This document shows positions 42,635 to 48,636 of a DNA stretch of 55,488 nucleotides, piece after piece (the stretch's first letter is position 1; every line of letters starts with the position of its first letter). The stretch spans positions 1-55,488 of the forward strand of contig CAMOQF010000004.1 of NCBI GenBank assembly GCA_946622645.1, read 5' to 3'. This DNA comes from an uncultured Blautia sp. GTDB lineage: Bacteria; Bacillota; Clostridia; Lachnospirales; Lachnospiraceae. The notes under the pieces are model-generated. The model saw only the letters and a list, made by a program, of their open reading frames with translations. It did no database searches and was not told where the DNA came from. The position numbers and the translations under genes are program-made.

Positions 42635-44065
42635 ATGTTAGTAAAGTCTCTGGTTGAAACCAAAGCAAGGATCGGCGTTTTTTCGATCGCGCTCGGCGCG
42701 TACCTTCCACAGTTTCCTTCCCTTGTCCCCGAATTTGAAGCCCAGTATGAAGCCTTCAAAAAAATGCTCCCTGACACAGTCGATCTGATCGACGGCGGGA
42801 TCGTCACGACCAAAGAGCTGGCCATGGCCGCCGGTGATAAATTCCGCGCTGCCGACGTCGACCTGGTGATCCTGCAGCTGCTGACATACGCGACATCCTA
42901 CAACATGCTTCCCGCTGTCCGGGATCTGGACGTCCCCGTGGTCCTGGTCAATCTTCAGAAAAAAGCGGCGCCGGATTACGCGAAGACAGACACCGCCACA
43001 TGGCTCGGCGAACTCTACGCCTGCGGCGCCGTCGGCGAGATGGTCGCCGATCTTGAAAGAGCCGGAAAACGTCACGCCGTGATCACCGGCGTGGTGGAAG
43101 GCGGAGATCCCGCAGCCATCGCCGAGATCGAAGACTGGTGCAAAGCCGCTCAGGTAAGACGCAGATTCCGCGATACCAACCTTGCCCAGATCGGAAGGCC
43201 TTATCCCGGCATGATGGATCTCTACATCGACGAGACCAACCTGTATCACAGGATGTGGCTCTATACCAAACAGTTCGACTGGGAGAAGATGTGGGCGATC
43301 GCCGACGACATCGATGACGAAGCCGCCATCCGCGAAAAAGCCCAGGACATCCTCGACACCTTTGAGATCGAAGGCGGCGGGACCATCGAAAAAGTATGGG
43401 ACATGGCCCGTTATGTCGTAGCCTTTGAAAAATGGGTCCGCGACGAGCAGATCGGCTTCATCGCGTCGCACTACGACGGCTTTGCCCAGGGGAAAGCCGG
43501 CACGCTGGACAGCATGCTGATCCCCGCCTTCTCCATGCTGATCAGGCAGAGCGTCGCCTGCGCGGTCGAAGGCGACATCAAAGTGGCGATGGCCATGAGC
43601 ATCCTCAAGACCATCTCCGGCATGGGACAGCTCTCCGAGATGTACTCCATCGACTTTAACGAAGACATCTGCATCATCGGCCACAGCGGATCGGGCGATG
43701 CGGACATCTCCGCAAAGAAACCCACCATGAAGATCGTCGAAGTGTTCCACGGAAAGACCGGCGGCGGATATCTGACCCAGTTCTATCCGCACCTCGGTCC
43801 GGTCACATACCTCGGCATCACCCAGGACAAGGACGGCCATTTCAAATTCGTCGTGGCGGAAGGCGTCAACGAAGACGGACCGATCTTCACGTTCGGGGAC
43901 ACCAACATGCGCACCCGCTTCACCTGCGGAGCCAGAGAGTTCTGCAACAGATGGAGCGAGGCAGGCCCCACGCACCACATGGCCGCGGCATCCGGCCGGC
44001 ACATCGACACCATACTCAAAGTGGCAAAGATATTCAATGTACCGGTGGATGTGATCACGAGATAG
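42635..44065 (+). CDS. L-arabinose/L-fucose isomerase family protein
   Basis: A 476-residue protein similar in length and pattern to AraA-type isomerases: RIGVFSIALGAYLPQFPSLV near the start, LVILQLLTYATSYNMLP, SHYDGFAQGK and AMSILKTISGMGQLSEMYSI, then HSGSGDADISAKKP and a C-terminal THHMAAASGRH. These enzymes interconvert aldoses and ketoses with a bound metal ion. Several signature AraA residues differ, so the sugar is uncertain. No kinase or epimerase gene is next to it. Its last 11 bp overlap the end of the convergent GDPD gene. Confidence 0.8.
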   Translation: MLVKSLVETKARIGVFSIALGAYLPQFPSLVPEFEAQYEAFKKMLPDTVDLIDGGIVTTKELAMAAGDKFRAADVDLVILQLLTYATSYNMLPAVRDLDVPVVLVNLQKKAAPDYAKTDTATWLGELYACGAVGEMVADLERAGKRHAVITGVVEGGDPAAIAEIEDWCKAAQVRRRFRDTNLAQIGRPYPGMMDLYIDETNLYHRMWLYTKQFDWEKMWAIADDIDDEAAIREKAQDILDTFEIEGGGTIEKVWDMARYVVAFEKWVRDEQIGFIASHYDGFAQGKAGTLDSMLIPAFSMLIRQSVACAVEGDIKVAMAMSILKTISGMGQLSEMYSIDFNEDICIIGHSGSGDADISAKKPTMKIVEVFHGKTGGGYLTQFYPHLGPVTYLGITQDKDGHFKFVVAEGVNEDGPIFTFGDTNMRTRFTCGAREFCNRWSEAGPTHHMAAASGRHIDTILKVAKIFNVPVDVITR

Positions 44066-45327: not shown

Positions 45328-45765
45328 ATGAACAAAAATAATACCAGTCAGAAAATTCTCGTGATCGACGCGCAGGGCGGAGGGCTTGGAAAACAGCTGA
45401 TCCAGAATATCAGAAAAGACCTGCCGCAGGCTTATATCATGGCTGTCGGGACCAATTCCGCAGCCACCGCCGCAATGCTGAAAGCAGGCGCCCATGAAGC
45501 GGCCACCGGCGAGAATGCCGTCGTCGTCGCAAGCCGCAAAGCAGACGTCATTATCGGACCGATCGGTATCCTGATCGCGGACTCCATGCTGGGGGAGATC
45601 ACGCAGGTCATGGCTGCCGCCGCCGCGCGCGCGGAAGCGCCCCGCATCCTGATCCCTTTCAGCAGCTGCGACAACTATATCGCCGGCGTATCGGATTTCA
45701 GCATCGGGCATCTGATCAGCGATGCCTTGGAACAGCTCAAAAACCTGATGACAGACAATACATGA
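45328..45765 (+). CDS. DUF3842 family protein
   Basis: A 145-residue soluble protein with an N-terminal nucleotide-binding-like loop (KILVIDAQGGGLGKQLIQNI) and MAVGTNSAATAAMLKAGAHE, typical of DUF3842. The function is unknown. Members occur mainly in anaerobic Firmicutes. The glycine-rich loop suggests binding of a nucleotide or cofactor. The -35 element of the next promoter lies within its last codons, so it may be partly co-expressed with the nickel-related operon that follows. Confidence 0.85.
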   Translation: MNKNNTSQKILVIDAQGGGLGKQLIQNIRKDLPQAYIMAVGTNSAATAAMLKAGAHEAATGENAVVVASRKADVIIGPIGILIADSMLGEITQVMAAAAARAEAPRILIPFSSCDNYIAGVSDFSIGHLISDALEQLKNLMTDNT

Positions 45766-45776
45766 TGTGTTATAAT
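45748..45776 (+). promoter_or_regulatory. Promoter of the larC operon
   Basis: ATGACA (45748-45753), inside the last DUF3842 codons, and a perfect TATAAT (45771-45776) are separated by 17 bp. Transcription should begin near 45783, exactly at the first arm of the structured leader. Confidence 0.75.
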
Positions 45777-45782
45777 GACCCA

Positions 45783-45949
45783 AACGGCATGAAGCCATTT
45801 TTATATGCGCCGAAGCGCATCTGATGCATCGTACATTCACGATGCGGTTCCTGTTGCAGGGCAGCCGGGTATTTGTCCTGCACACAATACTTTGGTAAGC
45901 CATGAAGGCATGCCCACTCTTCTCAGAAGAGGACGGGTATGCTTTTTTT
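45783..45949 (+). ncRNA. Structured 5' leader with pseudoknot and terminator, riboswitch candidate
   Basis: The leader contains a possible closing helix GGCAUG/CAUGCC (45786-45791 with 45909-45914) and a hairpin AUGCGC-CGAA-GCGCAU (45805-45820). A second hairpin is GCAUCGU/ACGAUGC (45826-45845), and a third is CCGGGUAUUUGU/ACAAUACUUUGG (45865-45876 with 45884-45895). The loop of the third contains CCUGCA (45877-45882), a perfect complement of UGCAGG (45855-45860) just upstream, so a pseudoknot can form. It ends in a strong terminator: GCATGCCC/GGGTATGC (45908-45915 with 45935-45942) with an inner CTCTTC/GAAGAG and seven T. The 3' arm of the closing helix is also the 5' arm of the terminator, so the two exclude each other. 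I do not recognise the class. Confidence 0.7.
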
Positions 45950-45969
45950 GAGCAGAAAAGGAGGAAAAA

Positions 45970-46368
45970 ATGGCTTGTTTTTTAGTATCGGCAGCTGAAG
46001 CTGTCGTCGTCACTGCGGTAGAGAAGGCAGAAGAAAAGAAAGAACAGAAAATCGCGGAGAACAGCTCTTCTGAGATCGTCGAGACAAAGATCCCGCTCAG
46101 CAGAAAACTGAAATGGCTCTCCTATATGCTGTGGGGAGGCGCCATCCTGCTGGCCTTCGAACATATCTGGCACGGAGAAGTGGTGGCATGGTTCCCGTTC
46201 TTATCCGCCATGTCAGATCCGGGGGATACAGCTGAGATGCTGCACGAAATGGCAACAACCGGCGTATGTATGGCCTTGCTGGTCACGCTCGTCTGGATCG
46301 GCATGTGCTTTGCGGCGGATGCCATCCTGAAACGCGGACAGAATGAACCTGCACGTAAAGCTTCCTGA
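45970..46368 (+). CDS. Small membrane protein in larC operon, unknown family
   Basis: A 132-residue protein. It opens with MACFLVSAAEAVVVTAVEKA, then a charged stretch (about 20-45). Two membrane helices follow (about 50-68 and 96-118), separated by a loop with HIWHGEVVAWFPFL, whose two histidines could touch a metal. A strong ribosome site (AAGGAGG) follows the leader terminator by about 10 bases, so expression depends on read-through. I do not recognise the family. Its place before an ECF S component and LarC suggests a part in metal uptake. Confidence 0.65.
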   Translation: MACFLVSAAEAVVVTAVEKAEEKKEQKIAENSSSEIVETKIPLSRKLKWLSYMLWGGAILLAFEHIWHGEVVAWFPFLSAMSDPGDTAEMLHEMATTGVCMALLVTLVWIGMCFAADAILKRGQNEPARKAS

Positions 46369-46385
46369 CAGAAAGGATATAAAAA

Positions 46386-46694
46386 ATGACATTATTGCTC
46401 ACAGTCTTTGCGGCTGTCTTTGTGACAGTCAAATGGTATAACCGGAAAGACGACAGCATGAAGCTTGGCATCCTCTGTTTTCTGTACTGGGGAGCCTCGA
46501 TCATGTGGTTCGTAGATGCTGTTTTTGAATACGCGGAACTTGGTGCCGCTTACTTTACGCCGGCTCTGGAGGATATGATCAACGACTCCTTCCTGGGTCT
46601 GTCCGTGATCGCCCTGGGCCTGATCATCTGGCTCGTAAGGCTTCTGATCACGGATCCGAAAGGCTCTGTACGCGCAGCACTTCAAAAGCACTGA
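46386..46694 (+). CDS. Small membrane protein in larC operon, unknown family
   Basis: A 102-residue protein with three hydrophobic segments (about 2-16, 27-45 and 68-88) and a polar loop EYAELGAAYFTPALEDMIND. It lies 17 bp after the previous gene, with AAAGGA ahead of the start. The family is not recognised. Together with its neighbour it resembles the small accessory membrane subunits of metal ECF transporters in size and position only. Confidence 0.65.
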   Translation: MTLLLTVFAAVFVTVKWYNRKDDSMKLGILCFLYWGASIMWFVDAVFEYAELGAAYFTPALEDMINDSFLGLSVIALGLIIWLVRLLITDPKGSVRAALQKH

Positions 46695-46709: not shown

Positions 46710-47249
46710 ATGAGAAAAGAACAAAAAAACGTGTTACGTCTGGTTTATTCCGCCATCTGTCTCGCTTTGTGTATGGTACTTCCCTTTCTGACCGGTCAGA
46801 TCCCGCAGATCGGGCAGATGCTCTCGCCGATGCATATCCCGGTTTTTCTGTGCGGCTTTATGTGCGGCTGGCCGTGGGGACTGGCGGTAGGTTTCATTGC
46901 ACCGCTCTTAAGAGGCGCTGTGTTCGGCATTCCCGTGCTGGTTCCGGGGGGGATCTCCATGGCTTTCGAGCTGGCGACCTACGGCCTGATCGCAGGGATC
47001 CTCTACCGTGTCTTTCCCAAAAAGCTTCCGTATATCTATCTGACCCTTGTGATCGGGATGATATCCGGACGCATCGTCTGGGGAATCGTGCGTTTTATCG
47101 TTTCCGGCGTGACGCAATCGGAATTCACGTTTGAAATGTTTATGGCAGGAGCCCTGATAAACGCCATTCCCGGCATCATCCTGCATCTTGTGCTGATACC
47201 TGTCATCGTACAGGCGATGCAGAAAGCAAAACTGATCGTCAATGACTGA
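46710..47249 (+). CDS. ECF transporter S component-like membrane protein
   Basis: A 179-residue protein with about five or six helices. Features of ECF substrate-binding subunits are LVYSAICLALCMVLPFLTGQ, MLSPMHIPVFLCGFMCGWPW, and a late PGIILHLVLIPVIVQAM. The substrate is unknown. With LarC immediately downstream (LarC starts 13 bp after its stop), nickel or a nickel-cofactor precursor is the leading guess. The ribosome site is weak, so it may depend on translation of the gene before it. Confidence 0.75.
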   Translation: MRKEQKNVLRLVYSAICLALCMVLPFLTGQIPQIGQMLSPMHIPVFLCGFMCGWPWGLAVGFIAPLLRGAVFGIPVLVPGGISMAFELATYGLIAGILYRVFPKKLPYIYLTLVIGMISGRIVWGIVRFIVSGVTQSEFTFEMFMAGALINAIPGIILHLVLIPVIVQAMQKAKLIVND

Positions 47250-47262
47250 AGAGGAAAAACCG

Positions 47263-48636
47263 ATGAAAAAGACGCTTTTTATTGACTGCAGCATGGGAAT
47301 CGCAGGAGACATGTTTACAGCCGCTTTGCTGGAGCTGTTTCCGGACAAAGAAGACATGGTCCGGAAACTGAATCAGCTTCAGATCCCGGGCGTGGAATAC
47401 AGACCGGACGTCAAAACCGTCAATAACATCACAGGCACGCATATGACCGTGCTGATCCATGGCGAGGTAGAGGGAGAACCCCATCCCGGTCATCATGAAG
47501 AAGACCATGCTCACCATGAGCACGATCATCACGACCATGATCACCACGACCATGACCATCATGACCACGATCACCACGACCACGATCATCACGGATACGA
47601 GCATGATCATCACGATCATCATGGTCACGATCATCATCATACCAGCATGCAGGAGATCCGCGATCTGATCGGCTCCCTGCAGATCTCCGACAAGACCCGG
47701 CAGGATGTCCTGTCGGTCTATGAGGTCATCGCCCAGGCAGAGAGCAAGGCGCACGGTGTTCCGGTCACGGATATCCATTTTCACGAAGTGGGAACGATGG
47801 ACGCCGTCGCCGATATCACGGCAGTCTGTTTTCTCCTGGAGCAGCTTTCCCCGGATGAGATCATCTGCAGTCCGGTCCACTTAGGCTGCGGAGAAGTTCA
47901 CTGCGCGCACGGAGTCCTTCCGGTGCCGGCTCCTGCCACCGCTTACATCCTTGCAGGCATCCCGACCTACAGCGACGGAACCAGGGGAGAACTTACCACG
48001 CCTACAGGAGCTGCCCTCCTCAGGCATTTTGTTTCCCGCTTTGAGACCCGGACGGTCCGGGATCAGTACGGCACGCCGGACGACCTTCAGATCAGCGCAG
48101 GAGCTGCCTGTCCCATGCCGCTGCCGCACGTCGAAGCCACTGCCTATGGAATGGGGACAAAGGAGTTTTCCAGGACCAACTGTGTCCGCCTGTTCTGGGG
48201 TTCTTCCGATCCCGCGTCCGGACGCGATACGATCGTGGAGCTTCGCTGCAATATCGACGACATGACGGCAGAAGAACTCGGATTTGCGATGGACCGTCTT
48301 CTGGAAGCCGGCGCCCTGGACGTTTTCATGATCCCGGTCATCATGAAAAAGAACCGCCCCGGGACCATGTTCTGCGTCCTCTGCAAAGAAGGACAGAAGG
48401 AAGAGCTCACACGCCTGATCTTCAAGCATACTTCCACCATCGGCATCCGCGAAAATGTATCTTCCCGAAGCGTCCTGAACCGTGAAGAAGAAATACGGCA
48501 TACTCCTTACGGAGAATGCCGTCAGAAAAATGTTTCCGGTTATGGAACAGCTCGGAAAAAGCTTGAATACGATGACCTTGCCGGGATCGCCATCCGGCAC
48601 GGTCTGAGCCTCGCCGAAGCCCGGGAGCTGTTATGA
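47263..48636 (+). CDS. larC: LarC, nickel insertion enzyme for the nickel-pincer cofactor
   Basis: I choose the ATG at 47263 (MKKTLFIDCSMGIAGDMFTA), 8 bp after GAAGAGG, giving 457 residues. LarC inserts nickel into the pyridinium dithio-mononucleotide to finish the cofactor of lactate racemase and related enzymes. Typical marks are DCSMGIAGDMFTAALLELF, FHEVGTMDAVADITAV, HGVLPVPAPATAYIL, GELTTPTGAALLRHF, and ELRCNIDDMTAEELGFAMD. A His/Asp-rich segment (about residues 75-128, mainly HDHH repeats) probably stores or binds nickel. It is one continuous frame, whereas Lactiplantibacillus needs a frameshift to join LarC1 and LarC2. No larA, larB or larE lies in the window. Confidence 0.92.
   Translation: MKKTLFIDCSMGIAGDMFTAALLELFPDKEDMVRKLNQLQIPGVEYRPDVKTVNNITGTHMTVLIHGEVEGEPHPGHHEEDHAHHEHDHHDHDHHDHDHHDHDHHDHDHHGYEHDHHDHHGHDHHHTSMQEIRDLIGSLQISDKTRQDVLSVYEVIAQAESKAHGVPVTDIHFHEVGTMDAVADITAVCFLLEQLSPDEIICSPVHLGCGEVHCAHGVLPVPAPATAYILAGIPTYSDGTRGELTTPTGAALLRHFVSRFETRTVRDQYGTPDDLQISAGAACPMPLPHVEATAYGMGTKEFSRTNCVRLFWGSSDPASGRDTIVELRCNIDDMTAEELGFAMDRLLEAGALDVFMIPVIMKKNRPGTMFCVLCKEGQKEELTRLIFKHTSTIGIRENVSSRSVLNREEEIRHTPYGECRQKNVSGYGTARKKLEYDDLAGIAIRHGLSLAEARELL

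Follow-up and report, generated by a model that had tools for sequence, protein, structure and literature searches.

A short operon ending in larC in an uncultured Blautia sp. (Lachnospiraceae) is preceded by a 187-nt leader, and the question raised by this locus is how that leader is controlled and which genes it serves. The first-pass annotation had described it as an unrecognised, riboswitch-like RNA, in which an aptamer-like part with a closing helix and a pseudoknot would decide over an intrinsic terminator. The leader and its relatives were compared with Rfam, with each other and with the genes around them. The window denotes the whole stretch of DNA analysed (55,488 nucleotides), and the features at the locus are listed in Table 1.

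Table 1. Features of the leader, the operon and the upstream gene in the window.
Feature	Position	Strand	Remark
DUF3842 gene (PF12953)	45328..45765	+	Pfam 166.4 bits; 3' end overlapped by the promoter of the leader
Promoter	45748..45776	+	-35 ATGACA, 17-nt spacer, -10 TATAAT
P1 hairpin	45786..45796	+	GGC-AUGAA-GCC, GAA pentaloop
P2 hairpin	45805..45820	+	AUGCGC-CGAA-GCGCAU, GAA tetraloop; GAA-to-GAA distance from P1 21 nt
Two hairpins of the variable P2-P3 linker	45826-45845, 45856-45881	+	folded; outside the shared architecture (alignments)
P3 antiterminator hairpin	45894..45914	+	GGUA-A-GCC-AUGAA-GGC-A-UGCC; 7 pairs plus a single A-A mismatch; present when the nascent RNA is folded by minimum energy
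Intrinsic terminator	45905..45949	+	5' arm includes the 3' arm of P3; from fold and T run
P4, apical hairpin of the terminator	45920..45933	+	UUCUC-AGAA-GAGGA; its GAA 22 nt after that of P3
Ribosome-binding site	45959..45964	+	AGGAGG
m1	45970..46368	+	small protein of membrane type, 132 aa; opens the operon
m2	46386..46694	+	small hydrophobic protein of 102 aa; adjacent to m1 in relatives
ECF transporter S component	46710..47249	+	PF12822 59.4 bits, above cut-off
larC	47242..48636	+	nickel insertion in nickel-pincer cofactor synthesis; PF01969 417 bits

The promoter-like site in front of the leader carries 11/12 consensus bases and places the transcript start near 45783, at the leader's 5' end, where the first-pass annotation had put it; sites of that grade were observed three times in the 1201 bases scanned vs. 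1.3 expected. The terminator claimed to lie about 20 nt before the first start codon is present as well: a strong hairpin followed by seven T ends 20 nt ahead of the start codon at 45970, and is not among the sites listed by a simple terminator scan. LarC had been named as the last product of the operon, and this holds, with NCBIfam LarC1 (184.5 bits) and LarC2 (143.2 bits) both above cut-off; the ATG at 47263 is an alternative start codon, and a long His/Asp-rich stretch encoded at 47480-47640 (by eye) is probably metal-binding. Of the two small genes at the start of the operon, m1 gave just weak, sub-cut-off matches (BCD and DUF2189), and family searches (Pfam, NCBIfam) assigned m2 to no family. 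They form a conserved small hydrophobic pair (45970-46694) that in relatives is often located close to lar genes, whether or not the element described below is present, and are candidates for a role in nickel or cofactor transport or maturation. A MHIPV motif was seen by eye in several relatives of the ECF S component, whose substrate is plausibly nickel or a cofactor precursor. Further upstream (42635-44065), the window encodes a distant sugar isomerase relative with fucose/arabinose isomerase C-terminal domains just under cut-off.

When folded, the 187-nt leader gave a z of -4.0 (0/200 shuffles as low) and the part 5' of the terminator a z of -1.6 (8/200 shuffles as low), the folding excess in the window coming mostly from the terminator; this much would also fit an ordinary intrinsic terminator accompanied by chance hairpins, with no regulation. 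The minimum-energy fold of the RNA up to 45934 contained P1, P2, the two linker hairpins, P3 and the P4 stem; at the P4 apex, the pairing in the minimum-energy fold extends one step further and leaves a 3-nt loop. An Rfam search had been proposed as a check on the novelty of the leader. At gathering score the window had 0 matches, and no Rfam 15 class was found at the leader in the window or in the 27 related loci (15 + 12, with a tRNA and a group II intron elsewhere in them), so the leader is rightly called unrecognised; a lax search of the leader region returned three chance matches (best E 3.9).

Relatives were collected through m1, which was found in 54 of 397 family genomes and in one additional genome from within the genus. 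Short GAA-loop hairpins, mostly with a terminator, were read by eye at 10 of these 55 m1 5' ends, and nine of the ten loci had DUF3842 within the fetched stretch. When DUF3842 itself was searched for (43 of 200 genomes from the family sample have it), this leader turned up immediately 3' of it and before other genes. The covariance model R1, built from 10 leaders with the window excluded, recovered the window leader (40.9 bits, E 0.0014) and gave new matches before larB, larE, a NikA-type gene and an ECF S gene. The model R2 was built from 16 leaders with the window included, five of them found through DUF3842, and was searched against the 397 family genomes, the best 80 of 565 DUF3842 loci in public assemblies and 291 genomes of the class; the E-values of both models are rough.

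The resulting set of 78 matches comprised 46 of the 47 from the best 80 DUF3842 loci (E ≤ 1), 28 of the 30 family matches with a locus, L033, and three weak R1 matches hand-picked as real-looking (L129, L132, L138). A minus-strand match in L176 was left out, two family matches were the same places as L193 and L211, and just one of the family matches with E 0.0285 to 0.3 (no locus) is in the set (G111, as L138). The other weak R1 loci (L128, L130, L131, L133-L137 and L140-L144) did not look real on reading and were left out. For the hairpin statistics 69 of the 78 matches were kept: L163, L238, L239, L215 (25.2 bits) and L174 (26.1 bits) were judged false or weak, while L211, L193, L226 and L219 were dropped as duplicates or near-duplicates; as the twins of L211 and L193 were missing from the hairpin table, two good elements were lost here without need. 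The 26.1-bit match precedes an ecfS gene and may be real. In the class sample, R2 matched 12 genomes from ten families at E ≤ 0.012; at E 0.014 to 0.064, L284 was judged real and L282, L283, L285 and L286 look false.

The feature common to P1, P2, P3 and P4, absent from the first-pass annotation, is a GAA loop. Hairpins called by this rule in the 69 elements were P1 in 47, P2 in 64, P3 in 54 and P4 in 42, all four being found in 19. The loop was a pentaloop (NNGAA) in 31/47 P1 and 47/54 P3 hairpins and a tetraloop (NGAA) in 58/64 P2 and 36/42 P4 hairpins, with a C-G closure in 43/47 P1 and 61/64 P2 (the script sought GAA loops only). Measured from GAA to GAA, P1 and P2 lie 19-24 nt apart (n = 47; 16-24 accepted by the script) and P3 and P4 17-23 nt apart (n = 34; fixed distance windows for P3 and P4), while the distance between P2 and P3 ranges from 22 (L236) to 147 nt (L201). 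The leader thus resembles a tandem-hairpin unit present twice, with the 5-nt loop first and the 4-nt loop second.

GAA-loop hairpins of at least 4 pairs numbered 2.82 per match vs. 0.23 in shuffles, i.e., a twelve-fold excess (n = 78). A detector of tandem GAA hairpins (18-22 nt spacing) run on the 80 DUF3842 loci (823 kb) found 53 pairs, whereas each of 11 control loop cores gave between 0 and 4. Eleven of the 53 pairs fell in nine loci without an R2 match (E ≤ 0.012); seven of these loci were read, all with the pair before larE, larB, larC, m1 or a cbiM-like gene, and in the remaining two it stands before m1 and ecfS. One of these 11 pairs, in L167 (6440), is likely a coding repeat. Covariation in homologous leaders, the second check that had been proposed, was found in both stems scored: 0.757 vs. 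0.260 shuffled for P2 (58 hairpins) and 0.581 vs. 0.344 shuffled for P3 (44 hairpins), with 0/500 shuffles reaching either score. All 7 pairs of P2 showed changes on both sides; the hairpins had been selected for at least 3 inner pairs, and pairs 4 to 7 from the loop, which constitute the unselected test, changed on both sides too. One P2 row (L123, an AT-rich palindrome) is probably misassigned. Chance hairpins were rejected by the excess over shuffles and by the loop-core controls, and this excess, together with the covariation and the placement before one gene set (below), leaves an unregulated terminator with next to no probability.

Promoter-like sites were found upstream of 43 of the 69 elements vs. 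7 expected, and in 33 of these 43 the -10 box ends 24-31 nt upstream of where the P2 model begins, a distance from which it follows that transcripts start at or just before P1. Not all elements are built alike at their 3' end. Among the 21 larB loci above cut-off that were fetched for comparison, a second subtype was read by eye in three (L243, L249, L254), where the terminator takes both P3 arms; the hairpin reads GCC-ACGAA-GGC or similar, both arms lying inside the terminator. Another larB locus, L255, is like the main type (by eye), and in two genomes with the second subtype (G130, G082) DUF3842 contains IDGQGGRMG or MDGQGGRMG. In L150, L168, L183 and L072, GAA hairpins stand before m1 and near the ribosome-binding site, with no clear terminator (by eye), and these variants may act on translation.

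The elements on which a single ligand-binding aptamer had been postulated fared differently. The 6-nt complementarity read as a closing helix (GGCATG/CATGCC) is indeed present in the window, but it is not conserved: runs of at least 6 of this kind occurred in 3 of 34 elements, the window included, vs. 1.84 by permutation, and 125/500 permutations reached 3. For the pseudoknot assigned to the third hairpin (45856-45881), no exact 6-nt complement was found within 45783-45969. This hairpin and the one before it (45826-45845) fold as described, but both belong to the variable linker. By eye, AUGCCC in the 5' arm of the terminator (45911-45916) would be able to pair, through one G-U, with GGGUAU in the loop of the second linker hairpin, which is possibly a lineage-specific extra contact. 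A true riboswitch, binding nickel, cobalt or a nickel-pincer precursor directly, would agree with a leader that offers P3 and the terminator as alternatives before the genes of one pathway and has no Rfam class; a closing helix and a pseudoknot that are absent or not conserved, the same loop repeated from hairpin to hairpin and so elastic a distance between P2 and P3 make it improbable.

The element is not unique to the larC leader, an idea that was rejected on finding matches before many other genes: it precedes larB, larC, larE, NikA-type, CbiM and FecCD transporters, ECF S genes and the small membrane-type pair. A recognised gene was found within 1.3 kb of 73 of the 78 matches, the first one being m1 (22), ECF S (15), NikA-type (12), larE (8), larB (8), fecCD (6), a gene for a metal binding protein (1) or an ECF ATPase (1). 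With E ≤ 0.012, a recognised gene starts within 1.3 kb in 64 of 67 matches, 62 of them within 250 nt, which bears out the earlier view of a regulatory leader that should choose between termination and read-through and is tied to genes for nickel or the nickel-pincer cofactor. The five matches without a recognised gene are weak ones in L215, L163, L238 and L239, plus L228. In L228 (G385), a transposase-looking gene (by eye) stands between the element and m1, and in L190 a methyltransferase stands before fecCD. Nine of the 10 new matches in the class sample also lie before genes of the nickel set, the tenth (L280) having no recognised gene. The reference proteins for these gene calls came partly from the same loci, and names were checked on representatives only: those of LarB, LarC and LarE scored above NCBIfam cut-offs, CbiM with PDGLE, FecCD, SBP_bac_5 and ECF S were identified by Pfam, and the NikA-type and CbiM proteins remained under NCBIfam cut-offs. 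Judging by protein family and neighbourhood, the ABC and ECF transporters behind the element would carry nickel. We conclude that the leader belongs to an undescribed RNA switch family, made of paired small hairpins with the same loop and placed before nickel-uptake and nickel-cofactor genes of many bacteria.

The presence of the element follows that of DUF3842 and not that of the genes behind it. Among the family genomes with an R2 match (E ≤ 0.012), 28/30 have DUF3842, vs. a base rate of 43/200, and 13/15 have it when the 15 genomes with training leaders are removed; within the 200 genomes searched for both, the count is 14/15 against the same base (p 9e-10, which ignores kinship). The two element genomes without DUF3842 (G295, G262) have neither tandem hairpins nor a suitable gene and look false, and matches with E 0.012 to 0.3 gave DUF3842 in 5/13 genomes, as expected if mixed with chance matches. 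In the class sample, all 12 element genomes have DUF3842 (base 96/291; hypergeometric p 1e-6, which ignores kinship), including 10/10 of the genomes that were new to the analysis. At the m1 locus, an R2 match (E < 0.001) was found in 9/11 genomes with DUF3842 vs. 0/44 without it (Fisher p 9e-9, which ignores kinship); 7 of the 9 are R2 training leaders, so the weight of this contrast rests on the 0/44. The two exceptions with DUF3842 are G385, in which the element lies 3 kb upstream behind an inserted gene, and G422, which has a short variant, while several of the 44 m1 genomes lacking DUF3842 have larC near m1 and no element found by the model. Such co-occurrence is what one expects of a regulator and its target site.

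In the best 80 of 565 DUF3842 loci, 38 have the element (E ≤ 0.012), and in 30 of these it lies within 300 nt 3' of DUF3842 on the same strand. The co-occurrence is nevertheless not mere linkage, since the element and DUF3842 are found on different contigs in nine genomes (G133, G278, G440, G291, G308, G614, G504, G511 and G603). That the element tracks a protein family counts further against direct ligand binding, and with the separate one-loop hairpins and the variable linker it favours a protein-bound antiterminator over a classical riboswitch. Which protein binds is a further question, and the same tandem-hairpin antiterminator could be bound by another one, DUF3842 being a sensor, a partner or an enzyme of the pathway. 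DUF3842 is widespread, and 84 of the 96 class-sample genomes that have it gave no R2 match at E ≤ 0.012, a gap due either to missed subtypes or to other roles of DUF3842; moreover, a sequence comparison with solved structures gave no significant relative (best E 0.46), no RNA-binding relative is known, and the copy in the window is not obviously basic (by eye). The co-occurrence even across contigs and the m1 loci that lack both DUF3842 and the element speak for DUF3842 itself, and we see only a small chance that another protein is the binder.

Altogether, we consider it likely that the leader acts as a protein-dependent antiterminator of transcription in a nickel/nickel-pincer-nucleotide regulon, with DUF3842 as its most likely regulator. 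Transcription would start at or just before P1, P1-P2 would serve as a loading site of two GAA-loop hairpins, and P3-P4 as a second GAA-loop pair, superimposed on the terminator. Because P3 shares its 3' arm with the terminator's 5' arm, the two structures are mutually exclusive. Once its 3' arm has been made, the terminator (-24.3 kcal/mol) outcompetes P3 and P4 together (-12.3 kcal/mol), so something must hold P3 for read-through to occur. With the regulator on P3-P4, P3 would sequester the terminator's prospective 5' arm, so that the operon would be read; with no regulator, P4 would extend into the terminator and transcription would stop. We infer that the neighbouring DUF3842 protein binds the RNA, presumably as a dimer or larger, that it reports nickel or cofactor status and that binding is the ON state; since the genes under control are those of uptake and synthesis, read-through would be expected under nickel or cofactor shortage. 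For the protein family as a whole, our expectation, held somewhat less firmly, is that DUF3842 constitutes a new family of RNA-binding antiterminators governing nickel import and cofactor synthesis in several groups of Firmicutes, sensing nickel or nickel-pincer status and binding tandem GAA hairpins, mostly in antitermination and in some cases perhaps at the ribosome-binding region.

The closest known system is the dual-hairpin antiterminator of ANTAR proteins. ANTAR targets in eut, nas and ami leaders consist of two small hairpins with conserved loops and constrained spacing, one of which overlaps the terminator, making termination incompatible with binding of the protein (PMC3369931, PMC8934654). 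Each loop is a hexaloop whose first base is A and whose fourth is G. The leader described here likewise has tandem small hairpins at constrained spacing with P3 overlapping the terminator; it differs in its tetra- and pentaloops ending in GAA, which do not follow the hexaloop A1/G4 rule, and in having two pairs per leader, with P4 as the terminator apex. The ANTAR domain (PF03861) had 0 matches in the genome of the window, and the control genomes also gave 0. LicT/SacY, HutP, PyrR and TRAP systems rely on a small protein, in many cases with its gene close to the target, that binds leader RNA and shifts the choice between terminator and antiterminator. The proposed DUF3842 system resembles them in having a small, nearby-encoded protein act on leader RNA, whereas their RNA motifs and proteins are unlike the leader and DUF3842, the comparison having been made only via Rfam scans. 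The NiCo (czcD) riboswitch controls export. It and other metal riboswitches have in common with the present leader that an RNA leader precedes metal-related genes, but no Rfam match was obtained here, and the genes are those of uptake and cofactor synthesis. In the literature searched (most subscription journals lay outside its scope), DUF3842/PF12953 was not named and a nickel or lar leader of this kind was not found.

The locus thus represents a new leader RNA family, probably together with a new type of RNA-binding regulator, akin in its working to known tandem-hairpin antiterminators. It offers a likely function for the common protein family DUF3842, delineates a regulon of nickel and nickel-pincer cofactor genes, and yields a sharp prediction that joins one small protein, one short RNA and one pathway. 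The element could also help to find additional nickel genes, the m1-m2 pair and the ECF S component being examples.
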